From assembly GCA_018061265.1 (NCBI GenBank), contig JAGOUM010000038.1, positions 1-32,014 on the forward strand: DNA of 32,014 nucleotides. The letters are read 5' to 3'. Shown here one piece after another: positions 8,551-29,332 of the stretch. The DNA is from Rhodoferax sp. Its GTDB lineage: Bacteria > Pseudomonadota > Gammaproteobacteria > Burkholderiales > Burkholderiaceae_C. The position numbers and the translations under genes were made by a program. Positions within the stretch are counted from its first letter, which is position 1, and every line of letters begins with the position of its first letter. The notes beneath the pieces are model-generated. The model was not told the origin of the DNA, did not search any database, and worked only from the letters and a program-made list of their open reading frames with translations.

Positions 8551-8794
8551 CCTTGGACAGGCGCAAGGCGCACGGCACAGTGCTGATCATTGCGCTTGTT
8601 CAATCCCGGTCATCACTTTATGAGCTACTTTATCCGTAGCTAGTGGCATTTATTCTGTATGGGCTGCAGGTCATTTCTTTATAAATATGCTGAGGTGGCG
8701 CGAGCAGACCCTGGGTTGAGCTAACAGTGAAGCATGGGCTAAAGGCTCGTTTGGCTTTGTTTGGATTGCCTTGCAAGTGGTTCATAAAATCTGC
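8551..8794. other. intergenic region with AT-rich Comamonadaceae-type repeat
   Basis: No gene seen between the phytase-like gene and the cpdB promoter. Around 8611-8690 is an AT-rich stretch with GAGCTAC, TAGCTAG and GGGCTGCAGG words, resembling the short dispersed intergenic repeats common in Comamonadaceae genomes. This is from memory and not checked against other copies. Confidence 0.35.
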
Positions 8795-8828
8795 GCTTCA
8801 CCTGACTGTCACATTGGCCTCGTACATT
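8795..8828 (+). promoter_or_regulatory. Pho box and -10 upstream of cpdB
   Basis: GCTTCAC-CTGA-CTGTCAC (8795-8812); the second half-site is perfect. Exactly 10 bases later is TACATT (8823-8828). Transcription would start near 8835, which rules out the upstream start of the open frame at 8771 and supports the GTG at 8858. Confidence 0.7.
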
Positions 8829-8857
8829 GCGCTGGCCCTTTACTATCAGGAGTTCTT

Positions 8858-10912
8858 GTGGTTCCCTTTGCCAAATTCAGATTTCCACCCCGGTCGCTCA
8901 TGACGAGTTCTCTTACCGCCGCATTCATTGCCAGCCTGGCTGCCTGCGGTGGATCAGACGGTGATGCCGCGCTGCCCGAATCAGCCACCGCCCAGTTGGC
9001 GGTTTTGGAGACCTCCGACCTGCACGCCACCGTGGTCAGCTACGACTACTTCAAGCTGGCCGAAGACAAAAGTGTGGGCCTGGAGCGCACCGCCACGCTG
9101 ATCAAGCAGGCCCGCGTTGACTTTCCCAACAACCTGTTGATCGACAACGGCGACACCATTCAGGGCAGCGCCTTGGCCGACTACCAGGCACTGGTCAGCC
9201 CGCTGGCCTGCAGCCAGAAGCTGGCCACCTACAAGGCCATGGATACCATTGGCTTTGATGCTGGCACGCTGGGCAACCACGAGTTCAATTACGGCCTGCC
9301 TTTCCTGTCGCAAGTGACCGGCACCAAGTTCAATGTCGATGGCATGGCCGCTGTGACCAGTCAACCCACCTGCACCGGCCCGGCTTTCCCGCTCGTGCTG
9401 GCCAACGTCAGCAGCAAAAAAGACGGAGCGCCGCTGTACAAGCCCTACACCATCATCAGCAAGAAGGTCAGCGCCAAAGACAAGGACGGCAAAACCATTG
9501 AGAGCACCGTCAAGGTGGCGATCATCGGCTTTGCGCCCCCGCCCATTCTGCTGTGGGACAAGCGCTGGCTTGATGGCAAGGTCGATGTGCAGGGCGTGGT
9601 CGAGGCCGCCACCAAATATGTGCCCATGGCGCGTGCCGAAGGGGCCGACATTGTGATTGCCGCCTCACACGGCGGCTGGGACACCAGTGCCTACACCGCA
9701 ACCATGGAAAACGCCAACTACCACCTGGCCAAAGTGGCTGGCATTGATGGCATTTTGATGGGCCATTCACACGCCGAATTTCCCAACGCAGCCTGCACCA
9801 CGGCCGCCTGCAGCGCCACCGGTGTAGACAAGGTGAAGGGCACCTTCCACGGCGTGCCCGCTGTCATGCCCAGTTACTGGGGCAAGGCCATCGGCGTGAT
9901 CAACTACAACCTGGTGGTGAAAAACGGCAAGTGGGCCATCGACACCAGCAAAACCGCCGTCAGCGTGCGCAAGGCCTTGCTCGATGCCGCGGCCAAAACC
10001 TATGTGGCAGTGGACCCAACCATTGCAGCGGCGATCAAGACCGAGCATGAGGCCGCCATTGCCTACGTGAAAACACCCATCGGCCAGTCAGACTTTGCGC
10101 TGTCCAGCTACTTTGCCGACATTGGTGATGTGACTGCCATCCAGGTGGTCAACGCCGCACAGGCCGACTATGTGGCCAGGTATGTGGCTGCCAACATGCC
10201 GCAGTACAAAGACCTGCCCGTGCTGTCGGTCAGCGCGCCGTTCAAGAGCGGTTTTGCCGGTGGCACCGATTTCACCGACGTGAAGCAGGGCGCGATTGCC
10301 ATCAACAACGCTGCTGATCTGTACCTGTACCCCAACACGGTGTACGCGGTGAAGGTCACGGGCGCTGGCATCAAGACCTGGCTGGAAAAGGCTGCCGAAC
10401 GGTTCAACCAGATCGACTCCACCCTGACCACGGCGCAGGCGCTGGTGTCCACCTTCCCCGGCTACAACTTTGACATGTTCACCTCGGCCGACGTGAGCTA
10501 TGAAATTGATGTGACGCAAGCCAAGGGTAGCCGCATCAAAAACCTGAACTACAAGGGGGCACCCATCAGCACCACGGCCGAGTTCATCATTGCCACCAAC
10601 AACTACCGCGCCACCAGCGGCACGCAGTTTGGCCTGACTGCTGCCAACACCATTTACGCATCGCCCGATGCCAACCGTGACGTGCTGATTGACTACATCA
10701 AAGCCCGCAAGAACCTGACGCTTGCCACCGATGGTTCGGCACGCAGCTGGCGTTTTACCAAGGTCACGACGGCCGGCCCGGTCACCTTCACCTCGGGCAG
10801 CGGCAAATTGGCAGTGGCGCAGACCGCCGGGTTCAGCAACATCAGCGTCGTCAGCGCGGATGATGGCAGTGGCAAAGGGCAGGGCGTGTACGCCATCGAT
10901 CTGTCCAAATAG
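8858..10912 (+). CDS. cpdB: CpdB-type 2',3'-cyclic-nucleotide 2'-phosphodiesterase / 3'-nucleotidase lipoprotein
   Basis: A 684-residue exported phosphoesterase that opens 2',3'-cyclic nucleotides and dephosphorylates 3'-nucleotides, releasing phosphate from RNA breakdown products. Metallophosphoesterase motifs: ETSDLHA, DNGDTIQGSALADY, LGNHEFNYG, ASHGGWD and GHSHAEFP. The C-terminal 5'-nucleotidase domain has NNAADLYLYPNT, the substrate-binding FNQIDST and the ending VYAIDLSK, very like E. coli CpdB. The GTG start at 8858 has AGGAG at 8848-8852 with 5-base spacing and lies after the Pho promoter, although the frame is open from 8771. It begins with a basic segment, then a lipobox LAAC and GGSDGD, so it is predicted to be membrane anchored, unlike soluble E. 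coli CpdB. Confidence 0.9.
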   Translation: MVPFAKFRFPPRSLMTSSLTAAFIASLAACGGSDGDAALPESATAQLAVLETSDLHATVVSYDYFKLAEDKSVGLERTATLIKQARVDFPNNLLIDNGDTIQGSALADYQALVSPLACSQKLATYKAMDTIGFDAGTLGNHEFNYGLPFLSQVTGTKFNVDGMAAVTSQPTCTGPAFPLVLANVSSKKDGAPLYKPYTIISKKVSAKDKDGKTIESTVKVAIIGFAPPPILLWDKRWLDGKVDVQGVVEAATKYVPMARAEGADIVIAASHGGWDTSAYTATMENANYHLAKVAGIDGILMGHSHAEFPNAACTTAACSATGVDKVKGTFHGVPAVMPSYWGKAIGVINYNLVVKNGKWAIDTSKTAVSVRKALLDAAAKTYVAVDPTIAAAIKTEHEAAIAYVKTPIGQSDFALSSYFADIGDVTAIQVVNAAQADYVARYVAANMPQYKDLPVLSVSAPFKSGFAGGTDFTDVKQGAIAINNAADLYLYPNTVYAVKVTGAGIKTWLEKAAERFNQIDSTLTTAQALVSTFPGYNFDMFTSADVSYEIDVTQAKGSRIKNLNYKGAPISTTAEFIIATNNYRATSGTQFGLTAANTIYASPDANRDVLIDYIKARKNLTLATDGSARSWRFTKVTTAGPVTFTSGSGKLAVAQTAGFSNISVVSADDGSGKGQGVYAIDLSK

Positions 10913-10925
10913 ACCGGTTTGATCA

Positions 10926-10965
10926 AAAAAGAGGCCCGACTGCCGACCGGCAGCGCGGGCCTTCT
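10926..10965. terminator. Rho-independent terminator after cpdB, probably bidirectional
   Basis: GGCCCG (10933-10938) and CTGCC pair with GGCAG and CGGGCC (10956-10961), giving a long stem with a small internal mismatch. The plus strand continues TTCTTCCC; the minus strand continues TCTTTTTTG, a better T-run, so it could also stop leftward transcripts from the 5'-nucleotidase gene. Confidence 0.75.
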
Positions 10966-11270
10966 TCCCGTTGGGTGATCGGAAGGTGGTTTGCCCTGCA
11001 GTGGCCTATGAAGTGCGATGTGGGTTGCCAGGTCGACTCCCCGACCTCAGTTAACGCAAATAGGCCAGATTGGTGGTCTGGTCAGGTCTAACAGCGATCT
11101 AAAGTTGATAGCAGTAAAATGTTACTGATATTGCGCTAGAACCTAATTTTGCTTCTAAATGTCCTGCAGGATCAAGTTTCGGTTGCCTGATCAATATCTG
11201 CATGGCATGGTCGGGTCAGTGCAATCGCCTGGGGAACTCTGGCCATCGCCTCTAACCCATGGGTGCGATG
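10966..11270. other. intergenic region between convergent cpdB and 5'-nucleotidase
   Basis: About 300 bp without a credible gene. It contains small hairpins, e.g. CAGTAA (near 11112) with TTACTG, and an AT-rich segment around 11090-11160. No promoter or Pho box was recognised. Confidence 0.5.
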
Positions 11271-13136
11271 TCAGGGCAGGGTGACACCCGCCGTGGTGAC
11301 GACCTTCTGATTCGAGTACTCGCTTCGGGCGGGACGTGTTATTGATCCTTTGGCCAGAACATAGTCCACAAAACTTTGCGTGTACAGCAAGTAGGTGTTG
11401 ACGTAACGTCCACTCGAATACACCGTACCCAGCGCGGTGTAGCCATCTTTGCCGCTGGCAATGAAGTCGTTGGTTACCAGCACGTAGGTCTTCAAGGGGT
11501 CAATGGCACTCCAGGCACCCGTGGTTTTGTTGCGGACTTGCACTTGGGTCAGTCGCTGGCCCTTTGATTTGCTCATGTCGACGTCCCAGCGCAGTCCGGC
11601 GGCATAGGGATATGAACCCGTGCCCCCCGACGGATTGGCGACAAAATTGTTCACCCCGTCCTCAATGGCGGCAAGAACCTCGGTGCCGGTCATCTCAAGT
11701 TCGACCAGCACGTTGGTGAACGGCAGCAAGGTGAAAGCGTTATTCATGTTCAAGCTGCCGGCAGCCAGCGGCACCCGCAAGCCGCCCGCGTTTTGCAAGG
11801 AAAAGTCAGCCCGCTTGGCGGCAAACAGGAACGCTTCTGCCACCACCTGCGCGATGTCGCTGCCTTTGGCCAGCGTATTGGCAGCCTCGCAACCGGCCAC
11901 ACCCGCACTGCGGTTGGTGCTTTCACCAGGCACACGGACCAGACACAAGGCTTCGCTCGCTGCACCGATGGGCTTGGCTTTTTCTGCGCTTACCTGGTCT
12001 GAATAGGTTTTGAGGGCGCTCAGCGCCGCGGCATCAGGCGTCAGCACTTTGACCGCTGGCTGGCTGGCAGCCAGTTTGGCTACCAGAGTGGTACGGTCAG
12101 CCTCGGCCAGGGTTTGCCAGGCACCAGCGGCGTCCTTGCGTTTGAAGCTGTCGCCTATCAGCAGTGTGGATTGCCCGGTGCAACTCGCCACTGCACCGGC
12201 CTCGTTGAACTTGACGTTCATCAGGCCGGTGGCTTTGGCGTACTCCCAGGCCTGGCCGATACAGACGGTCTCACCGGATTTGTTTTTGGTGACCGTCGGA
12301 TAGCTGCCTGAACCGCTCAGGCCAAGTGGGCTCACGTTACCCAGCAAGGTGTGTGAGTCGCCTCCAATGATCACGTCCACGTCGGTCAGCTTGGCTGCCA
12401 GCGCCTTGTCAGCCTCATAGCCCTGGTGGGTAATGGCCACAATGTGCCGCACACCCAGTGCCTTGAGTTCGTCAATGGTTTTCTGTGCCGATGTGGCCTC
12501 ATCACTGAAGACGGTGGTGTCGAGTGGCCGAGAGGAATTGACGGTTTTGCCCGCCACTGTGATGCCGATCAGGCCCACCTTCACGCCATCCACCTCCTGG
12601 ATCAGGTAAGGTTTCAACACGTTGCCCGCCAGCGGTGTGCCTGCCTTGGGTGTAATGTTGCTTGAAATCACTGGTGTTTTACACGTCGATTTGCCAAGTT
12701 CGTCAATAAAACCCTTGAATACTGCATCGCTGTCGTCAAACTCATGGTTACCTGGCGCAAAAGCGTCAAAACAGACCGTGTTCATCATCATGGCATCCGC
12801 TGCACCCTTAAAAAAGGTGTAGTACAGCGTGCCGGTAAGAGCGTCACCGGCGTGAATTTTCAGCAGGTTTTTCTGGCTGGCCAGCGACTTGAACATGGCG
12901 GTCTGGCGGGCAAAACCACCCAGCTCAACTTGCGTCGCCACGCCATCGAGCGTGAGTTCGGTGTTGGCAAAGGCATCGAGCTGTGAATGGTGGTCGTTGA
13001 TGTGGGCGACATTGAGTTCCAGCGGCTTGAACGTCGGTGCGTCATCGTCACCGCCACCACATGCGCTCAGCAGCACACCAACAGAGATTAGGAAACAGGC
13101 GCTCTTCGCGGCACGGGAGATGACGTTGAGTTTCAT
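11271..13136 (-). CDS. UshA/NadN-type 5'-nucleotidase lipoprotein
   Basis: A 621-residue bifunctional metallophosphatase/5'-nucleotidase that would release phosphate from extracellular nucleotides. N-terminal metallophosphoesterase motifs: HINDHHSQ, HAGDALTGT, PGNHEFDDSD, ITHQGYEAD and GGDSHTLLG. The C-terminal nucleotidase domain has NAGGLRVPLAAG and FTLLPFTNVLVELEMTG. The signal peptide ends in the lipobox LLSAC followed by GGGDDD. Two conserved Cys pairs in loops (e.g. TVCFD and STCKT) suggest disulfides. Convergent with cpdB and divergent from phoD. The ATG at 13136 lacks a strong ribosome binding site, but the signal peptide begins there properly. Confidence 0.9.
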   Translation of the reverse strand: MKLNVISRAAKSACFLISVGVLLSACGGGDDDAPTFKPLELNVAHINDHHSQLDAFANTELTLDGVATQVELGGFARQTAMFKSLASQKNLLKIHAGDALTGTLYYTFFKGAADAMMMNTVCFDAFAPGNHEFDDSDAVFKGFIDELGKSTCKTPVISSNITPKAGTPLAGNVLKPYLIQEVDGVKVGLIGITVAGKTVNSSRPLDTTVFSDEATSAQKTIDELKALGVRHIVAITHQGYEADKALAAKLTDVDVIIGGDSHTLLGNVSPLGLSGSGSYPTVTKNKSGETVCIGQAWEYAKATGLMNVKFNEAGAVASCTGQSTLLIGDSFKRKDAAGAWQTLAEADRTTLVAKLAASQPAVKVLTPDAAALSALKTYSDQVSAEKAKPIGAASEALCLVRVPGESTNRSAGVAGCEAANTLAKGSDIAQVVAEAFLFAAKRADFSLQNAGGLRVPLAAGSLNMNNAFTLLPFTNVLVELEMTGTEVLAAIEDGVNNFVANPSGGTGSYPYAAGLRWDVDMSKSKGQRLTQVQVRNKTTGAWSAIDPLKTYVLVTNDFIASGKDGYTALGTVYSSGRYVNTYLLYTQSFVDYVLAKGSITRPARSEYSNQKVVTTAGVTLP

Positions 13137-13186
13137 AGTGGTGAATTGAACGAGTTAAAAACAGCCGCTGACGCTAATTCGGCCAT

Positions 13187-13204
13187 ATGACGCCCGTGTG
13201 TCAC
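13187..13204 (-). promoter_or_regulatory. possible Pho box upstream of 5'-nucleotidase (leftward)
   Basis: On the minus strand GTGACAC-ACGG-GCGTCAT (13204-13187) has the right spacing with two mismatches per half-site. No good -10 hexamer lies 10 bases beyond. Confidence 0.35.
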
Positions 13205-13229
13205 AAGTGCCCTGCAAGGTGTATTGCCG

Positions 13230-13263
13230 GTTTCACGCCGCTGTCACATGCAGCGTCTACAAC
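13230..13263 (+). promoter_or_regulatory. Pho box and -10 upstream of phoD
   Basis: GTTTCAC-GCCG-CTGTCAC (13230-13247); after exactly 10 bases comes TACAAC (13258-13263). The implied transcript starts near 13270, so the ATG at 13297 must be used rather than the earlier in-frame start at 13198. Confidence 0.7.
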
Positions 13264-13296
13264 CAGACTCCTCACTTCACTTTTCAGGAATCTGGC

Positions 13297-14997
13297 ATGC
13301 AGACCCCTTCCCGTCGCAACTTTGTCATTCAACTGGCGGCATTGACCGCTGCGACCAGCACTGGCATGGTGCTGTCTGGCTGCGGCGGCGCGGACGACCC
13401 TGACCCACCTCGTTTTGACTATGGAGTGGCCAGTGGCGACCCGTTGGCTGACCGGGTAATTTTGTGGACCCATGCGCAGTTTGCGGGCTTGTCCGACGAT
13501 GTTGCGTTGACCTGGGAGGTCGCAAGTGATGCGGCATTTGCCTCGCTGATAGTGTCTGGCAACGCCCGTGCCACTGCGGCGGCGGGTCACACCGTTAAAG
13601 TCGACGCCAGCGGTCTGAGTGCCGGTAAGGACTATTGCTTCCGCTTCCGCTGGGACCAGCATAGCTCACCGGTCGGTAAAACCCGCACCTTGCCTGCGGC
13701 TGGTGCGACCAGTTTGGCGCTGGCGGTGCTGACGTGCTCCAACTATCCGGCGGGTTACTTTCACGTCTATGCCGAGGCAGCCAAGTCGGCAGCCAAATAC
13801 GCCGTGCATCTGGGCGACTTTATCTATGAATACGCGGCCGATGGCTATGCCAGTGCCGATGCTGCTGCGCTGGGCCGGGTCTCGCAACCGGCCACAGAAT
13901 GTATCAAACTTGACGATTACCGCAAGCGCTACGCCCAGTACCGCTCGGACCCTGATAGCAAGACTTTCCATGCCACGATGCCGGTGATCGCTGTCTGGGA
14001 TGACCATGAGGCTGCCAACGACAGTTTTGACAACGGGGCTGAAAACCACACCGAGGGCTCGGAGGGTCGCTTTACCGATCGTCGTGCCGCCGCCGTGCAA
14101 GCTTGGCATGAATGGCTGCCCGTGCGCGCACCAGATCCCAAAGATCTGCTCAAGATCTACCGCAGTTTTGATTTTGGCGGTCTGGTGGCCATGCACATGC
14201 TGGAAACACGGCTGATTGGTCGCGACAAACAAATCACATTCACCGATCTGCTCAATCCGGCGACTGCCGGTGCCGCCATGGCAACATTGGCCTCACCCAC
14301 GCGCAGCATGATGGGTGCTGAACAACTGGCATGGCTGCAGGGACAGTTGGCTGCTTCAAAAGCAACTTGGCAAGTGTTGGGGCAGCAGGTATTGATGGCA
14401 CGAATGGAGTTCCCGGTGAGTGTGCTGACCGCCCTCAATCCGGACAACGCCGGGGCCGATGCGGTGGCAGCCGGCCAAAAGGCGATCAATGATTACCTGA
14501 CCGCCAAAGCGACTGCGGCTCAAGCGCCAGCCTTGCTAACAGAGACCCAGAAAGCCTTGCTGAACCCTGCCATTAACCCACAACTTGGTTACAACCTGGA
14601 TGCGTGGGATGGTTACCCTGTAGAGCGCGAAATTGTGCTGGGTACAGCCAAACAGTTAGGCAAGAAACTGGTGGTGTTGGCGGGAGACACCCACAACGCC
14701 TGGGCAAGCCAGCTCACGTTGGTGAACGGTACGGTCGTAGGCTACGAGTTTGCGACCACAAGTGTGAGTTCTCCGGGCTTTGAAGAATATCTGCCAACAC
14801 TGACGCCGGACCAGTCCAAGGCGATTTTCTTGGGGGTTGTGGACGACTTGAAATATGCCGACACCTATCGAAGGGGCTTCATGCTGATGCAGTTCACTGC
14901 ATCCGAAGCCAAGGGTACTTGGCATTTCGTCAGTACCGTCAAGTCGCGCAGCTACACCGTGGATGCCAGCGCAACGCTTGCTTACTCGCCGTCATAG
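13297..14997 (+). CDS. phoD: PhoD-type alkaline phosphatase/phosphodiesterase, Tat-exported
   Basis: A 566-residue PhoD-family (PF09423) enzyme that hydrolyses phosphate mono- and diesters using Fe and Ca. Visible motifs: FDYGVASGDPLADRVILWTHA (about 31-51), the Fn3-like N-domain, LTCSNYPAGYFHVY, HLGDFIYEY, VWDDHEAAND and VLAGDTHNAW. The N-terminus MQTPSRRNFVIQLAALTA carries a twin-arginine motif (SRRNFV), and the h-region ends in LSGC, so it may be a Tat lipoprotein. Start 13297 is chosen from AGGA at 13286-13289, the Tat signal and the Pho promoter position. phoX1 follows after 63 bp with its own Pho box. Confidence 0.92.
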   Translation: MQTPSRRNFVIQLAALTAATSTGMVLSGCGGADDPDPPRFDYGVASGDPLADRVILWTHAQFAGLSDDVALTWEVASDAAFASLIVSGNARATAAAGHTVKVDASGLSAGKDYCFRFRWDQHSSPVGKTRTLPAAGATSLALAVLTCSNYPAGYFHVYAEAAKSAAKYAVHLGDFIYEYAADGYASADAAALGRVSQPATECIKLDDYRKRYAQYRSDPDSKTFHATMPVIAVWDDHEAANDSFDNGAENHTEGSEGRFTDRRAAAVQAWHEWLPVRAPDPKDLLKIYRSFDFGGLVAMHMLETRLIGRDKQITFTDLLNPATAGAAMATLASPTRSMMGAEQLAWLQGQLAASKATWQVLGQQVLMARMEFPVSVLTALNPDNAGADAVAAGQKAINDYLTAKATAAQAPALLTETQKALLNPAINPQLGYNLDAWDGYPVEREIVLGTAKQLGKKLVVLAGDTHNAWASQLTLVNGTVVGYEFATTSVSSPGFEEYLPTLTPDQSKAIFLGVVDDLKYADTYRRGFMLMQFTASEAKGTWHFVSTVKSRSYTVDASATLAYSPS

Positions 14998-15022
14998 GGT
15001 TGTCACGCGAGCCAGCCATCAT
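14989..15022 (+). promoter_or_regulatory. Pho box and -10 upstream of phoX1
   Basis: CCGTCAT-AGGG-TTGTCAC (14989-15006), one mismatch per half-site, overlapping the phoD stop codon. Exactly 10 bases later is CATCAT (15017-15022). phoX1 starts at 15061. Confidence 0.7.
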
Positions 15023-15060: not shown

Positions 15061-16974
15061 ATGAAAACCACGCCTTTGATTGTCCTTAAATTGTCAGCCT
15101 TGAGCATTGCTGTCGGCATGACGCTCGCCGCTTGCGGCGGCAATGACGACCCGGCAAGCTTGACTTCGGTCGAGTTTACCGATACGCCAGTGCCCAGCAG
15201 CGATGCGGATATGTTGAAGACACAATCGTCGTCCAAGGCGATTTTTAAGTACTCGGATGGCACCAGCAAAGAATATCCACTGAGCTACACCAGCCTGTTC
15301 AAGAACACCGATGCAATCAGCACGGTGGGCAGCACCAAGTACGCCGCAGCGCAACTGTTTGACGTCAATATGAGTCCCATCATTGACCCCAACGGCGACC
15401 CGGTGGTGGCAGAAACGGCCGACTCCAACAGCCTGTTGAAGGTGGGCAGCAAACTGTTCCTGGTCAATCATTGGGAGTACGACAACATTCTGGCCAATGG
15501 CCAACAAGCTTACAAGGTGGCCAACTGGTACAGCCGCATGCCCATGAGCATGAGTCTGTCAGAGATTTCCCAGGGCAGTGACGGCAAGCTCAGTGTCAAA
15601 AGTCAAAAACCAGTGGACTTCTCCAGCGTGAACGGCGGCTGGATCTTCTGCTTTGGTTCACAAACGCCCTGGAACACTCACCTCGGGGGCGAAGAGGACT
15701 ATGACCTTTACTATGTGCCCGGTGAAAAGGCCTACACCACCACGACGGCCGGACTGAAGGCCATGACCGAGGTGTATTTCAAGAACACCAAAACGGCCAA
15801 TCCTTACCACTATGGTTACGCCACCGAAGTGGCGGTCAAGGAAGATGGGACCTACGGCGTCACCAAGCACTATGAAATGGGTCGCGGAACCTGGGAAATG
15901 GCCATCTACGCCAAGGACGGCAAGACCGCCTTTTTTGGTGACGATGGCTCTTATTCCGGCATGTTCATGTTTGTGGGTAACAAGGCCAACGACCCCAAGG
16001 CCGGCGGCAGCATTTATGCGGCCAAATGGACCCAAACCTCGGCAGACGGTAGCAATGCCGACACGACGGCCAACATCACATGGATCAAACTCGGCAGTGC
16101 CACATACGACGAAGTCAAGGCGCTGGTTGACAGCGGTCTAACGATTGGCGACATTTTCGAAACCTCGCTGACCGCCAAAGACGGCTTTGTGCCTACCCGC
16201 GCTGGCTCGGCCGAGACCATCTGGCTCAAACTCAAGCCCGGCATGGAAAAGGCAGCGGCATACCTCGAAACACGTCGCTACGCTGCCTACTTGGGTGCAA
16301 CCACCGAATTCACCAAAGGCGAGGGTGTGGCCATCAACCACGCTGACAAGAAGATGTACTACGCTTTGAGCTATATCCAGGGCTCGATGCTCGCAAATGA
16401 CGGCGGGCCGGTCGACCATATCAAGGTTAAAGGCAACAATGCTGGTGCCACGATGACATTTGACATGGCAAGTGCCGTCAAAGACACAGCCGGTGGCGCT
16501 ATTGCCTCCGACTACGTGCCGACCAAAGGCCACATCGAAGACAAGCTGCTGGGTCGTCCGATCACCGCAGACGCCAAAGGCAACACTGCCGATCCGGCCT
16601 ATACCGCCAACACCGACAACGTGTTCTTCTCGGAGAAGCTGCGTACCCTGTTCATTGGTGAAGACTCTGGCACACACGTCAACAACTTTGTCTGGGCCTA
16701 CAACGTTGATACCAAAAAGCTCAGCCGGGTTTTGAGCGTTGCTGCCGGGGCCGAGTCCACCGGCCTGCAAGTCGCGGAGGATATGAACGGTTATGCCTAC
16801 ATCATGAGCAATAACCAGCATCAAGGCGACTGGCTGAGCAGCCAGCCGGCGGCACTGACCACAAGTCTGAAAGCCAAGGCGCAAGAGCTGTATGGCGCAA
16901 ACAAATATGGCACCCTGAACTATTACCTGCAAGCCGATGTGGGTTACATCGGTGGCATGCCAGCGGTCAGGTAA
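15061..16974 (+). CDS. phoX: PhoX-family alkaline phosphatase lipoprotein, copy 1
   Basis: A 637-residue member of the PhoX/DUF839 family (PF05787), monomeric Ca/Fe phosphatases acting on many phosphomonoesters. The family block TPWNTHLGGEEDYD follows FCFGSQ (about 196-215); others are YHYGYATEVAVK, KHYEMGRGTWEM, ETRRYAAYLGATTEFTKGEGVAIN, NVFFSEKLRTLFIGEDSGTHVNNFVWAYN and the terminal SNNQHQGDW...GGMPAVR. The N-terminus is a Sec-type lipoprotein signal (LAAC, then GGNDD) without a twin arginine, whereas classical PhoX uses Tat. A CAGGAG ribosome binding site is at 15045-15050. The next gene encodes a diheme cytochrome; the same pair recurs in inverted order downstream. Confidence 0.88.
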   Translation: MKTTPLIVLKLSALSIAVGMTLAACGGNDDPASLTSVEFTDTPVPSSDADMLKTQSSSKAIFKYSDGTSKEYPLSYTSLFKNTDAISTVGSTKYAAAQLFDVNMSPIIDPNGDPVVAETADSNSLLKVGSKLFLVNHWEYDNILANGQQAYKVANWYSRMPMSMSLSEISQGSDGKLSVKSQKPVDFSSVNGGWIFCFGSQTPWNTHLGGEEDYDLYYVPGEKAYTTTTAGLKAMTEVYFKNTKTANPYHYGYATEVAVKEDGTYGVTKHYEMGRGTWEMAIYAKDGKTAFFGDDGSYSGMFMFVGNKANDPKAGGSIYAAKWTQTSADGSNADTTANITWIKLGSATYDEVKALVDSGLTIGDIFETSLTAKDGFVPTRAGSAETIWLKLKPGMEKAAAYLETRRYAAYLGATTEFTKGEGVAINHADKKMYYALSYIQGSMLANDGGPVDHIKVKGNNAGATMTFDMASAVKDTAGGAIASDYVPTKGHIEDKLLGRPITADAKGNTADPAYTANTDNVFFSEKLRTLFIGEDSGTHVNNFVWAYNVDTKKLSRVLSVAAGAESTGLQVAEDMNGYAYIMSNNQHQGDWLSSQPAALTTSLKAKAQELYGANKYGTLNYYLQADVGYIGGMPAVR

Positions 16975-16980
16975 AAAACC

Positions 16981-17008
16981 GTGCGGCAAGAGCCGCACTT
17001 TCTTGTTT
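16981..17008 (+). terminator. Rho-independent terminator after phoX1
   Basis: GTGCGGC (16981-16987), loop AAGA, GCCGCAC (16992-16998), then TTTCTTGTTT. It starts 7 bases after the phoX1 stop. The next gene would be reached by partial read-through or its own promoter. Confidence 0.8.
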
Positions 17009-17010
17009 CC

Positions 17011-17099
17011 AGGGTGGCTGCTCGGGCCACCCTGTGCTGTGAAAGCCGTCTCGCCAACAAAAAGGCGGGTCGACTTTCACAGGGTCTTGGTGACCCGCC
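17011..17099 (+). ncRNA. structured leader with mutually exclusive hairpins before cytochrome gene
   Basis: After the terminator is a perfect 8-bp hairpin (17011-17018 with 17026-17033). Then TGTGAAAG (17038-17045) pairs with CTTTCACA (17074-17081), enclosing CTCGCC/GGCGGG, so 17038-17081 folds as one long stem with loop AACAAAAA. GGCGGGTC (17064-17071), part of that stem, is also fully complementary to GACCCGCC (17092-17099). The two folds compete, or form an H-type pseudoknot if only the outer stem stays. The cytochrome ATG is 17 bases further on. No known riboswitch class is recognised. Confidence 0.45.
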
Positions 17100-17115
17100 C
17101 TGATCGTTCGAAAAC

Positions 17116-19152
17116 ATGAATCACATTTTCAGTTCCTGGCTGCTTCCCGCGGGCACCATGGTGTGCAGCCTGCCCTTCTTTTTTGTCGCTTGTGGCGGCG
17201 GCAGTGGTGGCACAGCGAGTGCGCCTGTTGTACCCGCTGCGGTGGCCAATGTCGCACTGATCGGCGACACCATCGACCGGGGTACCTTCGCCAACCCGCA
17301 CGCACATATCCCGGCACAGTGTTACATCGAAACCAGCCACGGTGCACAAAATGCCTGTTTGTTCTGCCACACCGATGGGGTTTCAGATCTGAAGCTGGGC
17401 AATAACAATCCGATGGCCGGCGGCAACCCGAATGTTGGCAACCTGCAGGCAAGTTATGCGTTTGGCGTGTTGCGTTACCCCTACGTGGTCAATTCAAGCA
17501 TCATGCCCTGGGTCAACACCTTGCAACCCGGGATATTGCGCGCGGCTGTTGAAGCAGCGGGCCATAAGCCTGGCACTTGGGACATGCAAAGTTATATTCG
17601 CCAGGACAACTGGCGCGCGGCGTTTGCCCAGCGCCCGGGCTCGGTGAAGGATTGGGATACAAAAGTCAACTCACCCTGGCGCTTGTTCCCGGCTTTGTCC
17701 CCAGACGATCTGCCGGCCAAAACGGATGGTTTTTTGCGCAGCACGGTGGAGCAGCGTGGCTACTTTAACGACGGGCTGGGCTGGAATACGGGCTGGCGTT
17801 CGGTCAACTTCATGCCCTACGGCATCTTTACGCCCCTGGCCGGCAGCGTCTCTGGCATTTACATCCGTTTGCCTGACACCTTTATGAAGAACTCGGCTGG
17901 TGAGTTTGACCTGGGCGCCTACAAGGCCAACCTGGACCGGGTGGAGCGCAACATTCAGGACCGACTGACCGGTGAAACCCGTTACAGCGGTGCGGCATCA
18001 TCGGTGCAGATTGTCCGGGGTCAATACCCGATCGGAACAGAGTTCGCCCATCCTCTGCACTATGTGGACGTTGCTGCTGACGGGCAAAACAGCAGCGTCA
18101 GTTCGTACCCCGGCAGTCGTGCGCGGAGGGTGAAAGAGATTCGCTGGATGGTCAAATCCCAGGACTGGTACCCTGATGAATTTGGCATGTCTCTCAAGGA
18201 CGAAGGCGCGCCGGTTTACGCCAGCCGCGACCAGGGCTGGATAGAAAACGGAGTGGGATGGATTTTGGGCGGCTGGATAGAGAACGCCAACGGCGACTTG
18301 CGGCCACAAACGCCCTCAGAACTGACCCAGTGTGTCGGTTGCCACTCGGGCAATGTGCGTCAGTCGGACGTGGGTCAACATGCCACCTACACCTCAGGGG
18401 TGGGCAACACCATCGATTCCACCTGGGCCATGGGACGCAAGTTCGCCGGCGACGCGGGCTGGCAAGAGATGAATTACCTGGGTTACCGGGCCAACCTGCA
18501 GGCAGGTGAGGCTGCAACCCCAGGAGATCTGACGGTGGCAGAACCGGTCAATCGCCAGCTCAACAGGGGCGAATTCCGTGTTTTCCTGGACTATGTGGTG
18601 GGTGCATCGCTGTATGGCGACATGCCCGATACGGTGGAGGGGTATTTGGCCAGCCAAATAACCCGCGCCCGGGGGTACGAAGCTGACTGGCCGGAACTGA
18701 AATCTGCCGTGGCGCAGCATGATGCGGCTGGGATAAAAGCCGTGCAGGCGCAGCGGCTGAGTTTGATGCGAGCATTTACCGCACGCGGCGCGCATCTGAA
18801 TGAGGCTGGCACGATTCGGCCCGAGCTGTTTTTGCCGACTCGCCTCAATGCACTGGCCGGTGCATCGCGCTATCGTCAGGTGGTGGTCACGCAACGCTAC
18901 GACTATGGCAAGGACGTGTTCCCCGAGACGCCGTTCACACTGCGCTACTTTCGCACAGCGGATGTTACCTACACCCACCAGGACGGCTCAGCTTACAAGC
19001 TGGGCGAAGTCATCACTGATCGACCCATCAACAACACCGTGGGTGACTTTGCGTATGGCATGGGCACCGAGCCAACACTGATCGATGAGGCTTTGCCGTT
19101 TTTGCAGGGGGGCACTTTTTTGCGCAACTATGTACCATTGCTCAAACCCTAG
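17116..19152 (+). CDS. diheme c-type cytochrome lipoprotein, copy 1 (paired with phoX1)
   Basis: A 678-residue exported protein with two CxxCH heme-binding motifs, CLFCH (81-85) and CVGCH (406-410), and a signal peptide ending VAC (Cys26) then GGGSGG. It is far larger than ordinary cytochrome c and does not match a named family I recognise. Conserved with its paralogue at 19184-21223: HIPAQCYIETSHGAQNAC.FCH, SYIRQDNW, NFMPYGIFTP..GSVSGIYIRLP, GTEFAHPLHYVDVAADG, RVKEIR and ASRYRQVVVTQRY. It lies directly after phoX1, so a redox role connected with phosphate-ester metabolism is possible but unproven. Ribosome binding site is poor; the structured leader may control translation. Confidence 0.82.
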   Translation: MNHIFSSWLLPAGTMVCSLPFFFVACGGGSGGTASAPVVPAAVANVALIGDTIDRGTFANPHAHIPAQCYIETSHGAQNACLFCHTDGVSDLKLGNNNPMAGGNPNVGNLQASYAFGVLRYPYVVNSSIMPWVNTLQPGILRAAVEAAGHKPGTWDMQSYIRQDNWRAAFAQRPGSVKDWDTKVNSPWRLFPALSPDDLPAKTDGFLRSTVEQRGYFNDGLGWNTGWRSVNFMPYGIFTPLAGSVSGIYIRLPDTFMKNSAGEFDLGAYKANLDRVERNIQDRLTGETRYSGAASSVQIVRGQYPIGTEFAHPLHYVDVAADGQNSSVSSYPGSRARRVKEIRWMVKSQDWYPDEFGMSLKDEGAPVYASRDQGWIENGVGWILGGWIENANGDLRPQTPSELTQCVGCHSGNVRQSDVGQHATYTSGVGNTIDSTWAMGRKFAGDAGWQEMNYLGYRANLQAGEAATPGDLTVAEPVNRQLNRGEFRVFLDYVVGASLYGDMPDTVEGYLASQITRARGYEADWPELKSAVAQHDAAGIKAVQAQRLSLMRAFTARGAHLNEAGTIRPELFLPTRLNALAGASRYRQVVVTQRYDYGKDVFPETPFTLRYFRTADVTYTHQDGSAYKLGEVITDRPINNTVGDFAYGMGTEPTLIDEALPFLQGGTFLRNYVPLLKP

Positions 19153-19183
19153 GCTCTGGCTTGGTGGCGCCTTGCACGGCTTT

Positions 19184-21223
19184 TCATTTGTTCTCAAACC
19201 TTAGTGGCGTGCTTAACAGCGGCACATACCTGGGGTTGTAGGTGCCACCCTGTGCAAAGTCGCTTTTCTCGTCGATCAGAGTAGGCACGTTGCCCACCAA
19301 ATAAATGTCAGCCGCCGGGTTGCTGCGGTGCACCGAGCGGTCGGTGATGACTTCGCCTTGGTGATAGGTTTGCCCGTCCAGGTGTGTAAAGGAGTTCAGG
19401 CTGTCGCGCAGGTAGGTGAAGTTGACCGGAGTCGTGGGAAACACGTCCTTGCCCAGGTGATATCGCTGGCTCACCACCACCTGACGGTAGCGCGATGCTC
19501 CGGCCAGTGCATCAGTCATTGGCGGGTACAACAGGGCACCGCGCACCCGGCCATGCGCATTCAGATGCTCGCCACGCGCCGTCAGGTCGCGCATCAGGCG
19601 CTGGCGCAGCGTTTGCGACTCGGTAAACGCTTGTGGGCTGCGGGTATTGATGGTGGGCCAATCCGCTGAGTAGCCGCGCTGCGTGCGGATGGTTTGCGCC
19701 AGATACCGCTCAATGGCAGCCGGCATGTCACCATACAGACTGGCACCCACCACGTTGTCCAGAAAGTAACGCAATTCGCCCTTGCCTTCGCCCCGATTGA
19801 ATGGGTCGCCCATTTTGGCCTGCCCTGGGGTGGCCTGAGCGCTGGTATTGGCAACAGCCTGATAGCCGAGATAGTCCATCTCTCTCCAGCCAGCTGAACC
19901 TGGCCACTTGCGGGCCATGGCCCAAGTGCTGTCCACCGTGTTTCCAGTCCCCGAGGTGAAGCTTGGGGACTGTTCCGTGCGCACGACGCCACTGTGGCAG
20001 CCAATACACTGGGTTAACTCCTGCGGGGTTTGTGGGCGCAAGCTGCCGAGTGCGTCTTCAATATAGCCTGCCAGGTACCAGCCGACCCCGTTGTCTACCC
20101 AGCCCTGGGTGGCATGGCCATAGACGGGCAAACCTTCTTCTTTCTCACCGGGGCGGAAGTCTGCATGGTGAAAGTCCTTCCATTTCATCATGTAGCGAAT
20201 TTCCTTCACGCGCTGCGCGCGGGTGCCCGGAAATCGGCTGATGTCGGGGCGGCTACCGTCAGCAGCCACGTCGACATAGTGAAGTGGGTGGGCAAATTCG
20301 GTGCCGACCGGATATTCACCACGGCGTAGCGGTACCTTGTGAGCTTGGCCAGTGAACCGTTGCCCGTCTGCCGGGGTCAAGCGGTCCTGAATAGCGCGCT
20401 CCAGCAGGTCCAAGTTGCGCTGGTACACCCCCAGGTTGAACTGCCCGCTGGCATCACGCATAAAGGCTTGCGGCAGGCGAATGTAAATGCCCGAGACACT
20501 GCCGGTCATGGGCGTGAAGATGCCGTAAGGCATGAAATTGACCGCTCGCCAGCCGGTCAGCCAACCGGCATCGTCCTTGAAATAACCGCGCGAGGCCTGC
20601 GGGCTGCGCACAAAGCCGTCAGCCTGCGCGGGCAGGTCAGCCGGAGCCAGGCCGGGAAACAATCGCATCGGATGGTTGACCGCACTGTCCCAGTCTTTGG
20701 CGCTGCCCGGGCGCTGGGAAAAAGCGGCGCTCCAGTTGTCCTGGCGCACATAGCTGGCCACCTCGGAGGCTCCCCAAGCATGTGGGTCTTGCCCCAGCGC
20801 CCGCACGGCGGCCAACAGTTTTTCTGGCTTCAGGGTGTTTTCCCAGGGGTTGACCACTGAGAGTGGCTCAAAGGGCCGGTGCGGCGCAAAGCTGTATTCA
20901 AGTTGCAGATTGCCCAGGCGGGGCTCAGCCCCCGCCTGTGGCAGGTTGTTGCCCAGGCCCAGCTCGTAAACGCCGTTGGTGTGGCAGAACTGGCAGGCGT
21001 TTTGCGCACCGTGCGAGGTTTCGATGTAGCACTGCGCCGGAATGTGCGAATACGGATTGTCGAATTGCGCCGGATTGAAAAAGTCGCCCACCAAAGCGTG
21101 CGCCGAGCCGCCTGTGTTGCCTTTGGCACCTGGCAAGGCAGTCACGCATGCGGTTAGCACCACTGCTGCGCTGGCGACACCCAGAATTGGCCAGACCAGC
21201 GGCTTACTGTTTGATTGTTTCAC
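19184..21223 (-). CDS. diheme c-type cytochrome lipoprotein, copy 2 (paired with phoX2)
   Basis: 679 residues, paralogue of the preceding gene and convergent with it (31 bp between stops). Heme motifs CQFCH (77-81) and CIGCH (406-410) lie at nearly the same positions as in copy 1. Signal peptide ends LTAC (Cys26), followed by VTALPG rather than the GG-acidic tail. The GTG start at 21223 has AGAGGAT about 7 bases upstream on the minus strand. It follows phoX2 after a strong hairpin terminator, as copy 1 follows phoX1. Function unknown; the two Cys-x-x-Cys-His sites and export are the only firm facts. Confidence 0.82.
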   Translation of the reverse strand: MKQSNSKPLVWPILGVASAAVVLTACVTALPGAKGNTGGSAHALVGDFFNPAQFDNPYSHIPAQCYIETSHGAQNACQFCHTNGVYELGLGNNLPQAGAEPRLGNLQLEYSFAPHRPFEPLSVVNPWENTLKPEKLLAAVRALGQDPHAWGASEVASYVRQDNWSAAFSQRPGSAKDWDSAVNHPMRLFPGLAPADLPAQADGFVRSPQASRGYFKDDAGWLTGWRAVNFMPYGIFTPMTGSVSGIYIRLPQAFMRDASGQFNLGVYQRNLDLLERAIQDRLTPADGQRFTGQAHKVPLRRGEYPVGTEFAHPLHYVDVAADGSRPDISRFPGTRAQRVKEIRYMMKWKDFHHADFRPGEKEEGLPVYGHATQGWVDNGVGWYLAGYIEDALGSLRPQTPQELTQCIGCHSGVVRTEQSPSFTSGTGNTVDSTWAMARKWPGSAGWREMDYLGYQAVANTSAQATPGQAKMGDPFNRGEGKGELRYFLDNVVGASLYGDMPAAIERYLAQTIRTQRGYSADWPTINTRSPQAFTESQTLRQRLMRDLTARGEHLNAHGRVRGALLYPPMTDALAGASRYRQVVVSQRYHLGKDVFPTTPVNFTYLRDSLNSFTHLDGQTYHQGEVITDRSVHRSNPAADIYLVGNVPTLIDEKSDFAQGGTYNPRYVPLLSTPLRFENK

Positions 21224-21276
21224 CGTCTTATCCTCTTGCTTGAATACTTCAAATTAAGGAGCTCCCTCCCCATATA

Positions 21277-21311
21277 GAAAAAGGGCTAGCCTCTGAAAAG
21301 ACTAGCCCTTT
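21277..21311 (-). terminator. Rho-independent terminator after phoX2
   Basis: A perfect 10-bp stem AAAGGGCTAG / CTAGCCCTTT (21280-21289 with 21302-21311). On the minus strand it is followed by TTTTTC. It sits between phoX2 and its downstream cytochrome, mirroring the terminator after phoX1. Confidence 0.8.
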
Positions 21312-21331
21312 GGGCTGGTAGCTGTTAACGC

Positions 21332-23224
21332 TTAGCGTATGGCAGGCATGCCACCCAGGTAACCCACCGGCGCGTTGAACTTGTCAATCTTGGCCGACAG
21401 CGCCGCCTTCAGGTCGGCCGGCACTGATGACGGCAGGTCACCCCAATGCTGGTTGTTGGCCATGATGTAGGCGTGACCGTTCAGGTTGTCCAGCACCTGC
21501 AGACCCGTGTTTTCAGCACCTGCGGCTGAGCTCAGGATGCGGGTGAGTTTTTTGGTGTCAACGTTGTAGGCCCACAGGTAATTGTTGACGTGCTCCCCCG
21601 AGTCTTCGCCAATGAACAGCGTGCGCATCTTTTCCGAGAAAAACACGTTGTCGGTGTTGGCAACTTTGCCCTCAGCGGCGGTGTTGCCCTTGGCATCCGG
21701 CGCTTTGAGCGGCTCACCCAGCAATGCGGACTCCACATACATGTTCACCGCCACATAGTTAGACGAAATGGCCGCGCCCTTGGCGTCCATCTGGCCGCCC
21801 TTCATGTCCAGGCTATAGGTCGCGCCAGCGCTGTTTTTGGCCAGGCGAATGTGATCAACCGGCTCGCCGGTCATGCTGGTCATGCTGTCGCGAATGGACG
21901 AAATGGCCATGTACAGGCGCTTGTCTTTGTCGTTGACGGCCACGCCTTCCATTTTGGTGAACTCGGTGGTGGCACCCATCAAGGCGGCCATGCGGCGGGT
22001 TTCGAGGAAGGCAGCCGCCTTTTCCTGGCCTGGGTTAACTTTCAGGCACTCGTCAGCGGTGGAGCCGCTGCGCACCCGGGTGTAACCGGCTTCGCAGGCG
22101 CCGTTTTTGGGTTGCACAGCCGAGAAAATCTTGTAGAAAGTACTGCTGTCAGCCAGCGCCTTGATCTCGGTGCTGTTGCCGTGGCCCAGCTTGACCCACT
22201 TGAGGTTGGCGCGGCCACCGTCTTTGTCAGAGGTTTGCTCCCACTTGGCGGCGTAGATGGTGCCAGCGTCGAGCTTGCCCGGCTGGTCGGCAACAAACAT
22301 GGCCATCAGACCGTGGGTTCCGTCGTCACCAAAGTACACCGTTTTGCTGTCGGGCATGATCTTGCCCATTTCCCAAGTGCCACGGCCCATGGCGTAGTGC
22401 TTGGTGACCTGGGTGCTGCCATCGGGCTTGACCGCCACTTCGTTCAAATAGCCGTAGTGGTAGCGGTTAGCCAGCTTTTCGCCCTTGAAATACAGGTCGG
22501 TCATGGCTTGCAGACCGGCGGAGGTCTTGGTGTGATCCTTGGTCAGCGGGTTGAACTGCAGGTCGTAATCTTCTTCAGACCCCAGATGGGTGTTCCAGGG
22601 GGTTTGTGAGCCAAAGCACGGAATCCACAAGCCGCCCACGGCAGAAAAATCGATCGGGCGCTGTTTGAGCAGACTCATCTGGCCAGAGTCATTCTGCTTG
22701 AGCTCAGACAACAGCATGCCCATGGGCGCGCGGGCATGCCAGTCTTTCACCTTGGTACCCACCGAGCCATCCGACAACAACCAGTCGTATTCAAGGTGCG
22801 TCACCATGAACAGCTTGTCGCCCACTTGCAGCAGGCTATTGGCATCAGGGGTCTCGGCCACCAGAGGTTTGCCCTTGGGGTCCATCAGGGGTTCCATCTT
22901 GTAGTTGTAGAGCTGACCGGCCGGGTGCATCTTGCCGCCGACTTCGCTGGTGGCATCTTTCAACGAGAACAAGGTGTTGTAGCTCAAGGGATACGTCTTG
23001 ACGCTGCCGTCCACGTAAGTCACCTTGACCGACGAGTCTGTGTAGGTCTTGCTCATTTTGTCGATTTCGGTCGCCACAGGCGCAGCGGTTTCGGTGAAAT
23101 CAACACGCTTCACGGCAGCCGTACCGGCACCGCCGCCGGTGGCACAGCCACCCAACATCAGCGCGGTGGCAGTCGCCGCGGCGCTCAAGGAAAAATAAGC
23201 TTGACGAGAGAAAAACATAAACAC
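21332..23224 (-). CDS. phoX: PhoX-family alkaline phosphatase lipoprotein, copy 2
   Basis: 630 residues, paralogue of the PhoX at 15061-16974 along its whole length. Shared blocks: FTETAAPV, YPLSYNTLFSLKDA, ETPDANSLLQVGDKLF, CFGSQTPWNTHLGSEEDYDL, YHYGYLNEVAVKPDG, KHYAMGRGTWEMG, TTEFTKMEGVAVND, NVFFSEKMRTLFIGEDSGEHVNNYLWAYN, AGAENTGLQV and GGMPAIR. The signal peptide ends in the lipobox LGGC (MFMFFSRQAYFSLSAAATATALMLGGC) and has no RR pair. One insertion relative to copy 1 carries CEAGYTRVRSGSTADECL, a probable disulfide loop. AGGAG precedes the ATG on the minus strand. Under its own Pho box. Confidence 0.88.
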   Translation of the reverse strand: MFMFFSRQAYFSLSAAATATALMLGGCATGGGAGTAAVKRVDFTETAAPVATEIDKMSKTYTDSSVKVTYVDGSVKTYPLSYNTLFSLKDATSEVGGKMHPAGQLYNYKMEPLMDPKGKPLVAETPDANSLLQVGDKLFMVTHLEYDWLLSDGSVGTKVKDWHARAPMGMLLSELKQNDSGQMSLLKQRPIDFSAVGGLWIPCFGSQTPWNTHLGSEEDYDLQFNPLTKDHTKTSAGLQAMTDLYFKGEKLANRYHYGYLNEVAVKPDGSTQVTKHYAMGRGTWEMGKIMPDSKTVYFGDDGTHGLMAMFVADQPGKLDAGTIYAAKWEQTSDKDGGRANLKWVKLGHGNSTEIKALADSSTFYKIFSAVQPKNGACEAGYTRVRSGSTADECLKVNPGQEKAAAFLETRRMAALMGATTEFTKMEGVAVNDKDKRLYMAISSIRDSMTSMTGEPVDHIRLAKNSAGATYSLDMKGGQMDAKGAAISSNYVAVNMYVESALLGEPLKAPDAKGNTAAEGKVANTDNVFFSEKMRTLFIGEDSGEHVNNYLWAYNVDTKKLTRILSSAAGAENTGLQVLDNLNGHAYIMANNQHWGDLPSSVPADLKAALSAKIDKFNAPVGYLGGMPAIR

Positions 23225-23244: not shown

Positions 23245-23278
23245 ATTATTTCGTTGTCATGTGTCAATTTTTTGACAA
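23245..23278 (-). promoter_or_regulatory. Pho box and -10 upstream of phoX2
   Basis: On the minus strand TTGTCAA-AAAA-TTGACAC (23278-23261), then exactly 10 bases, then AATAAT (23250-23245), a 5/6 match to TATAAT. The gene starts 21 bases after the -10. Confidence 0.75.
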
Positions 23279-27534: not shown

Positions 27535-27562
27535 ATTGGGTGTTCCAGGTGATCAGTTTCAT
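27535..27562 (-). pseudogene. 5' stub of a second EEP phosphodiesterase gene
   Basis: Overlapping the ugpE stop by ATGA, a frame reads MKLITWNTQ, identical to the first nine residues of the EEP protein at 23386-24273. It then diverges abruptly near 27535. The stub marks the right-hand breakpoint of the M1-containing segment. Confidence 0.8.
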
Positions 27563-29279: not shown

Positions 29280-29332
29280 GGTGGAACGGGCGATATCGGC
29301 CGCAGTCTGGCGAATGTGCAGCCGTACTTCGC

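Follow-up and report, generated by a model that had tools for sequence, protein, structure and literature searches.

Two phoX-cytochrome pairs

The DNA analyzed here, called the window, is a stretch of 32,014 nucleotides from Rhodoferax sp. (GenBank assembly GCA_018061265.1, contig JAGOUM010000038.1, positions 1 to 32,014). It carries two copies of a gene pair consisting of phoX and a gene for a diheme cytochrome (cyt); phoX1 and cyt1 are read rightward, cyt2 and phoX2 are read leftward, and the two pairs stand tail to tail. Starts of open reading frames (ORFs) were set mechanically throughout, and signal types, whether for the general secretory (Sec) or the twin-arginine translocation (Tat) route, were assigned by simple patterns. 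The four genes and the features around them are as follows.

15061..16974, plus strand: phoX1, 637 residues, Sec/lipoprotein-type PhoX (PF05787, 59.9 bits), with a lipobox-like LAAC and without a Tat motif (by pattern)
17116..19152, plus strand: cyt1, 678-residue diheme cytochrome with CxxCH at positions 81 and 406, a lipoprotein as judged by its lipobox pattern
19184..21223, minus strand: cyt2, 679-residue diheme cytochrome with CxxCH at positions 77 and 406, a lipoprotein as judged by its lipobox pattern
21332..23224, minus strand: phoX2, 630 residues, Sec/lipoprotein-type PhoX (PF05787, 66.9 bits), with a lipobox-like LGGC (by pattern)
14989..15006, plus strand: Pho-box-like site CCGTCATAGGGTTGTCAC before phoX1, equaled by 1% of 200 shuffles and overlapping the end of the phoD-like gene
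23261..23278, minus strand: weak Pho-box-like site TTGTCAAAAAATTGACAC before phoX2, equaled by 7.5% of 200 shuffles and weaker than the phoX1 site
16981..16998, plus strand: hairpin with a T-rich tail behind phoX1, from the terminator scan (whole intergenic stretch, z -5.9)
17010..17034, plus strand: second hairpin between phoX1 and cyt1, with a third next to it at about 17037-17082
21280..21311, minus strand: 14-bp hairpin with a T-rich tail in the phoX2-cyt2 gap (intergenic stretch, z -3.6)

An earlier note, made from the sequence alone, had described the tail-to-tail arrangement, and the four ORFs indeed lie at the places and on the strands it gave. The order Pho box, phoX, hairpin, cytochrome, which it read in both halves, also holds, with a weak site at phoX2 and with intergenic stretches that both fold better than 200 of 200 shuffles (z -5.9 and -3.6). 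The cytochrome lengths of 678 and 679 residues, and the CxxCH motifs placed near 80 and at 406, agree with our measurements, and both proteins stay below every Pfam and NCBIfam cut-off, in keeping with the remark that they belong to no family its author knew. The true start of phoX2 may be an in-frame ATG two codons later, at 23218, as judged against a relative at locus L020.

Both PhoX proteins exceed the PF05787 gathering cut-off of 24 bits, and their genes are the sole PF05787 matches of the window genome, whose assembly is 89.5% complete. A Pho-box-like site by the general consensus, the mark of the Pho regulon, lies upstream of each, the phoX2 site being weak. The Tat signal typical of classical PhoX is absent from phoX1 and phoX2, both of which carry lipobox-like motifs by pattern.

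Recurrence and layout of the pair

The pair recurs well beyond the window. A contig scan with two cytochrome peptide patterns yielded 67 stretches, among which 50 loci were confirmed, and adjacency in this set means that PhoX lies upstream on the same strand. A phoX gene directly precedes the cytochrome on the same strand at 47 of the 50 loci (the window's own record counted), and in 46 of these 47 the gap, counted from whichever PhoX piece is closest to the cytochrome, ranges from -95 to 199 nt; small mechanical ORFs lie inside two of the gaps, and the cytochrome ORF of L033 is over-extended. Two loci, L013 and L021, have no upstream phoX, and at L034 the cytochrome starts at base 67 of its contig. 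At L013 a SCO1/SenC gene (4955-5674) precedes the cytochrome. The records are mostly from Proteobacteria, and by their titles the order and strand are kept across Alpha-, Beta-, and Gammaproteobacteria; the few titles naming Planctomycetota, Desulfocapsa, or a cyanobacterium may reflect misbinning in metagenome assemblies.

Genomes from the same family, class, and phylum were surveyed as well, the window's own genome (G000) being counted each time. Since no more than three or four candidates were scored in each genome by these alignment-query surveys, further copies may have been missed. In the class survey, whose query was built from the 50-locus set, 19 of 369 genomes contain the cytochrome, at 22 loci, and PhoX adjoins it at 16 of them. 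Fifteen of these are ordered phoX-cyt and one, in G498, cyt-phoX; in this reversed pair (L124:5952-9431) a 497-residue PhoX (57.5 bits), which escaped the main PhoX profile, follows the cytochrome. The cytochromes of G338 and G411 lie at contig edges. One full-length cytochrome without phoX (G275:C5, L060:1-4741) is preceded by a gene for a phosphate-selective porin (PF07396), with DUF2325, FMN-binding, and PepSY-like (below cut-off) genes downstream. The phylum survey, which shares G000, G595, and G262 with the class survey, found the cytochrome in 5 of 299 genomes, at six loci, with PhoX adjacent by coordinates at five. PhoX of any kind occurs in 112 of these 299 genomes, and the cytochrome therefore accompanies a minority branch of PhoX; G784 and G595 each encode another, higher-scoring PhoX besides the paired one. 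Only two of 250 genomes in the family survey have the cytochrome, and one of them is the window's own. A plasmid search returned only three Pseudoalteromonas records, one of them annotated as PhoX plus "hypothetical protein"; a second of the three, L111, shows the same pair by ORF search.

With adjacency at 47/50, 16/22, and 5/6 loci, a functional link between phoX and the cytochrome is well supported outside the window. The earlier note had proposed this link and pointed to the neighborhoods of homologs as the place to check it; far from occurring mostly without phoX, the cytochrome has PhoX beside it in most cases in all three counts.

The earlier note had also described the two halves as an 8-kb inverted paralogous duplication. 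Mirrored DNA is present, in twelve stretches of 26 to 297 nt that are 71-88% complementary, but it totals about 1.3 kb per half and not the full 8 kb. Protein identity between the halves is 56.6% for the cytochromes and 54.5% for PhoX. The nearest relative of half 1 is the single pair at L007 (77.1% for the cytochrome and 87.4% for PhoX), and that of half 2 is the single pair at L020 (83.4% and 92.4%). In trees of both genes from 42 pairs, built by a quick method with support only from the Shimodaira-Hasegawa-like approximate likelihood ratio test (SH-aLRT), half 1 falls inside a 16-row clade (support, 100), and half 2 groups with L020 (support, 100) inside a larger clade that includes Competibacteraceae. 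The main clades of the two trees are congruent, and phoX and cytochrome distances correlate with r of 0.92, a raw figure without a null or species control. Since the two halves have separate closest relatives, each a single pair at another locus, they did not arise by local duplication, and a recent duplication in place, which would be hard to reconcile with identities of only ~55-57%, is rejected. The term paralogous duplication was thus an overstatement. As judged from the sequences, two old lineages of the pair came together tail to tail. Of the 50 loci, just one has the double arrangement, namely L006, which is the window's own record (NZ_JAGPBB010000047.1, a 100% match from a metagenome assembly); what recurs is the single pair.

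The layout of the pair is also shared. Pho-box weights and hairpin scores were computed with purpose-written scripts and mononucleotide shuffles. A Pho-box-like site among the best 5% of shuffles lies upstream of 26 of 46 phoX genes, compared with 23 of 209 control ORFs (10/67 plus 13/142; P = 1.6e-10), some of which may not be genes; the count skipped phoX rows with a short upstream stretch or with N, and the second phoX piece of L044. Upstream of the cytochrome, such a site is found in 4 of 52 cases. Behind the phoX stop codon a strong hairpin is present in 44 of 49 cases; co-directional gaps used as controls have one in 21 of 74 (P = 6e-12), convergent genes in 10 of 53, and the 3' ends of cytochrome genes in 14 of 49. 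Inside the phoX-cyt gap itself a hairpin is present in 41 of 45 tested gaps; L016, L026, L042, and L050 (4/45) lack one at the 5% level, and the gaps of L015, L017, L033, and L054 are too short for the test. In the window region a plain scan for terminators gave 8 sites, no more than the shuffle mean of 9.0, and the hairpin enrichment hence comes from the comparisons of gaps and 3' ends across loci. This layout suggests that phoX is expressed first and strongly, and the cytochrome second and more weakly.

Neighbor families other than PhoX are each limited to at most 8 of 51 loci. Neighbor clusters at some loci, labeled by Pfam on one or two representatives each, are acyltransferases (6 loci), GNAT proteins (6), glycosyltransferases (5), and calcineurin-like phosphoesterases (4), which we take to be OlsA/OlsB, Agt, and PlcP, proteins of lipid remodeling under phosphate starvation. 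The surroundings of the pairs in the window are, by Pfam and NCBIfam scans, dense in phosphate-scavenging genes.

207..1963, plus strand: GNAT acyltransferase (PF13444), presumably OlsB-like, and calcineurin-like phosphoesterase (PF12850/PF00149), presumably PlcP-like
6214..14997: phytase/esterase-like gene (plus), two 5'-nucleotidases (plus and minus), and PhoD (plus) (PF13449, PF02872/PF00149, PF09423)
27559..31686, minus strand: Ugp-like glycerol-3-phosphate ABC transporter genes, with UgpE, UgpA, UgpB, and UgpC as top NCBIfam matches, each under its cut-off

Positions 24245-24685 and 27534-27812 of the window are direct repeats with 76-82% identity. The repeated unit consists of the end of a ugpE-like gene and the first codons of an endonuclease/phosphatase gene, and its two copies are ~3.1-3.3 kb apart, with an M1 peptidase gene between them; they may be the decayed remains of an old duplication.

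The paired PhoX and its cytochrome

The phoX2 product has the PhoX fold by its model. An AlphaFold2 model of phoX2 (mean predicted local distance difference test score [pLDDT], 90.5) has as its top match in the Protein Data Bank (PDB) the Pseudomonas fluorescens PhoX 4a9v (Foldseek E, 1.3e-17; TM, 0.58/0.62), to which it is 17% identical in the structural alignment. The profile of paired PhoX matches that of 12 classical PhoX proteins at 99.4% (E, 1.2e-21). The columns C, EE, E, DD, and E align with classical PhoX, as in the P. fluorescens enzyme (4a9v, 3zwu), and are invariant in 47 rows; paired PhoX probably retains the Fe/Ca ligands, the assignment of columns to ligands being partly our assumption. 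In all 47 rows Lys replaces Arg two positions before the last Glu column, and Trp replaces His before the middle Glu.

Export signals differ between the paired and the classical proteins. Within the 50-locus set, a Tat-like motif occurs in 1 of 47 paired PhoX N termini (L016) and a lipobox-like motif in 31 of 47, with the rows of L004, the second piece of L044, and L046 dropped. In the class survey, 1 of 16 paired PhoX proteins has a Tat motif compared with 14 of 24 unpaired ones (P = 9e-4), and the sole motif on the paired side (G375) lies before the likely start. That list omits G425 (partial), G411 (contig edge), G281:C333 (fragments), and three proteins of a 360-residue type (G394:C61, G405:C51, and G515:C24), and adds G498. 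Classical PhoX proteins have twin-arginine motifs at all 13 loci examined (12 by regular expression, G494 by eye), and the cytochrome was found beside none of these 13 class-survey loci. By N-terminal pattern and alignment, paired PhoX is a divergent subfamily with Sec/lipoprotein-type signals in place of the Tat signal found in classical PhoX.

A few further PhoX genes are of note. In G487:C76 (L143:5072-13999), a single open frame of ~3000 residues, reaching the end of the fetched stretch, fuses PhoX, endonuclease/exonuclease/phosphatase, PhoD, and 5'-nucleotidase domains, phosphatase kinds that are separate in the window. G491 (L113:7381-10236) encodes a PhoX of 952 residues, which is extended at its N terminus by ~320 residues relative to phoX2 and has no cytochrome neighbor. 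Matches of ~360 residues to the PhoX profile (L146:3583-4662 and L147:3698-4780) adjoin another gene for an exported protein, whose N terminus we take to be like that of a phosphate-binding protein.

The cytochrome has two heme motifs. The 53 cytochrome ORFs come from the 50 loci and L004, with two in L006 and a split one in L046; 48 of them have exactly two CxxCH motifs, and the other five, truncated or split, have one. Full ORFs are mostly ~635-760 residues long, with a distant branch of 530-628, and identity across the superfamily falls to 28-32%. Across an alignment of 20 superfamily rows, two of them truncated, the invariants are C69, the first heme motif, H312, K340, E341, R343, K347, W382, and E389, and the second heme motif is nearly invariant. 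These residues would fit a heme pocket with a catalytic function better than a plain carrier of electrons.

Some resemblance to cytochrome P460 is seen around the second CxxCH and ahead of it. Of 46 members, 36 give weak Pfam matches to P460 (PF16694) there (best E over all 46, 2.9e-4), although none of those scored reaches the gathering score of 27 bits: the window cytochromes score 19.7 and 14 bits, and ten further members at most 23.8. In hhalign comparisons the cytochrome matched P460 at 69% (E, 4.4e-5; 75 columns) and at 57% (E, 1e-4; 38 columns), whereas the controls gave 0.85% for PhoX against P460 and 15.6% for MauG against P460. The cytochrome against MauG reached 29% and 28%, over 20 and 16 columns, respectively (E, ~6e-4), limited to the CxxCH stretch. 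A structural model of the cytochrome (pLDDT, 83.4) has members of the P460/cytochrome c'-beta family as its top five PDB matches, but with E values of 0.51-0.90 and probabilities of 0.12-0.20, and none of the 78 PDB matches reaches an E of 0.001; a PDB sequence search found no relative of the window cytochromes. Overall, the heme 2 region weakly resembles cytochrome P460, better than it does MauG but not decisively. P460 carries a lysine-heme crosslink, and K347 is invariant in the likely crosslink region. P460 is a short protein with one heme near its C terminus, whereas the window-type cytochrome adds an N-terminal heme and ~270 residues after heme 2.

Three other assignments were not supported. 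MauG and the diheme cytochrome c peroxidases (CCP; PF03150) share with this cytochrome two c-type heme motifs and a neighbor encoding an exported enzyme, and MauG has two hemes, but no similarity was found beyond the CxxCH stretch, and PF03150 is not among the families listed for the 46 members (E up to 0.1). The decaheme OmcA/MtrC family is unsupported as well, with 13.9 and 11.2 bits against an NCBIfam cut-off of 209.3 and with only two hemes present. A SAF-domain match of cyt1 (19.2 bits, below cut-off) is seen in one of 46 members and was disregarded.

The role of the cytochrome

The presence of a diheme protein gene next to phoX in many distantly related bacteria suggests that PhoX needs a heme partner for its activity outside the cell. 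We tentatively favor a role of the cytochrome as a dedicated maturation or redox partner with whose help PhoX, once outside the cytoplasm, would have its ferric cofactor completed, a role which we regard as a good possibility falling a little short of probable; that phoX and the cytochrome form one Pho-controlled unit is part of this proposal and shares its uncertainty. At low phosphate, phoX would be expressed strongly, and less cytochrome would be made by read-through past the hairpin. PhoX would be exported unfolded by Sec, and its cofactor of two Fe(III) and three Ca could not be loaded in the cytoplasm. The diheme protein, at the same membrane, would then complete the cofactor by accepting electrons from newly bound Fe(II), or would restore Fe(III) after reduction. 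Heme 1 could act as an electron relay and the P460-like heme 2 as the catalytic site, and the cytochrome would be needed substoichiometrically, as a maturase would be.

A precedent exists in Flavobacterium, where a PhoX with a cytochrome neighbor is already known. In the parts of PMC8812569 and PMC8115612 that deal with it, a lipoprotein PhoX (Fjoh_2478) is described in an operon with a MauG-like gene (Fjoh_2477, pf03150), both induced by phosphate depletion; the lipoprotein PhoX alone is inactive in Pseudomonas putida, and deletion of phoX in the native host lowers inducible phosphatase activity. This pair resembles ours in joining a divergent lipoprotein PhoX to a cytochrome gene, and differs in that its cytochrome belongs to PF03150 (CCP_MauG), whereas the window-type protein is larger and no homology with MauG was found for it. 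As the same kind of partnership, the Flavobacterium pair favors cofactor maturation or redox upkeep. Regarding the Tat route, the authors of PMC4223295 speculate, in the passage concerned, that it allows PhoX and PhoD to take up iron in the cytoplasm; Sec export of an unfolded PhoX would make such cytoplasmic loading impossible. The idea of the earlier note, that the cytochrome keeps the iron of PhoX in the right redox state, fits both the Sec/lipoprotein-type export predicted for an Fe-Ca enzyme and the Flavobacterium pair. A search of open-licence papers surfaced only that pair and no account of this cytochrome family beside phoX; neither the family nor its association with non-Tat PhoX of Proteobacteria, nor the layout of Pho box, phoX, hairpin, and cytochrome, was found in print within that literature.

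Several observations weigh against a maturation role. Ferroxidation in air is not known to need a dedicated protein. The likeness to P460 is weak, with an hhalign E (4.4e-5) only about tenfold better than that for MauG (5.9e-4). At 4 of 22 class-survey loci (G262, G516, G275:C5, and G420:C13) the cytochrome has no PhoX neighbor. Conversely, unpaired non-Tat PhoX proteins exist in G292, G491, G384, G531, G262, G281, G601, G452, and G487 (the C76 fusion), and these genomes, except G262 and G487, have no cytochrome match among the at most three candidates scored per genome; Sec export alone therefore does not demand a diheme partner. Among the neighbors of the unpaired non-Tat PhoX genes (one or three ORFs on each side), where a MauG gene was sought by its heme motif, none has two CxxCH motifs, and one ORF, at L140, has a single CxxCH. 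The Rhodocyclaceae-type clade (L015, L016, L017, L050, and L054) has no strong hairpin or too short a gap, and the hairpin is absent from the gap of L026. Finally, the authors of PMC8812569 also suggest that poor folding or localization may lie behind the inactivity, and a table in PMC8115612 gives Fjoh_2477 as cytoplasmic.

It is also conceivable, although unlikely, that the cytochrome acts on PhoX as MauG would, oxidizing its residues with peroxide or oxygen into a crosslink or hydroxylation needed for activity, as suggested for Flavobacterium. The inactivity in P. putida of the Flavobacterium PhoX without its MauG-like partner (as related in the papers above), the equal number of two hemes, and the invariant H312, K340, E341, R343, and K347 ahead of heme 2 are all consistent with such a modification; no target residue was identified, and neither hhalign nor the Pfam families of the 46 members revealed homology with MauG.

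We consider it equally improbable that the cytochrome is a separate redox enzyme of the Pho regulon that feeds PhoX, either as an outer-membrane protein freeing phosphate by reduction of ferric-phosphate minerals or by oxidizing a phosphorus compound to a phosphomonoester that PhoX cleaves; an oxidative reaction on organophosphorus compounds, which the cytochrome may carry out, was the other suggestion of the earlier note. The lipobox-like motif on the cytochrome would suit this role, as would the phoX-less cytochrome behind a phosphate-selective porin in G275 with its FMN-binding and PepSY-like (below cut-off) genes downstream, the PepSY gene near the Pseudoalteromonas pair, and the origin, by title, of several records from genera with iron or sulfur metabolism. 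Substrate feeding would not predict, however, that the partner is nearly always the divergent non-Tat PhoX and that the cytochrome stands beside classical PhoX in 0 of 13 cases.

A third alternative, which seems to us quite improbable, is that the PhoX-like protein has ceased to be a simple phosphatase and that the pair forms a two-part redox enzyme on a propeller scaffold. The low identity to 4a9v and the Arg-to-Lys and His-to-Trp replacements in 47 of 47 rows could be read in this way, but the conserved metal-ligand columns, the Pho-box enrichment, and the phosphatase-rich surroundings in the window speak for a phosphatase. Mere co-transfer on a mobile phosphate island, with no shared function, would account for the patchy distribution (2 of 250 family genomes, including the window's own) and the congruent trees, yet it is very improbable, as the immediate gene order is kept down to cytochrome identities of 28-32% while the other neighbors change.

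Returning to the cytochrome as a partner in PhoX maturation, we propose, as a possibility held with more doubt than confidence, that the diheme family, so far undescribed, is a dedicated periplasmic or outer-membrane maturase for assembly of the mixed Fe(III)-Ca cofactor of Sec-exported PhoX outside the cytoplasm, and that this solution has arisen at least twice with unrelated cytochromes, P460-like in Proteobacteria and MauG-like in Flavobacterium. In soils and waters PhoX ranks among the major phosphatases, and its Fe-Ca cofactor is rare. If one branch of it needs a heme partner, counts of phoX genes overstate phosphatase capacity wherever the partner is missing. If the proposal is true, it would explain failed heterologous expression of lipoprotein PhoX, provide a function for the cytochrome family, of which the two window members pass no Pfam or NCBIfam cut-off, and reveal a new kind of extracytoplasmic assembly of a metal cofactor, testable with two genes.

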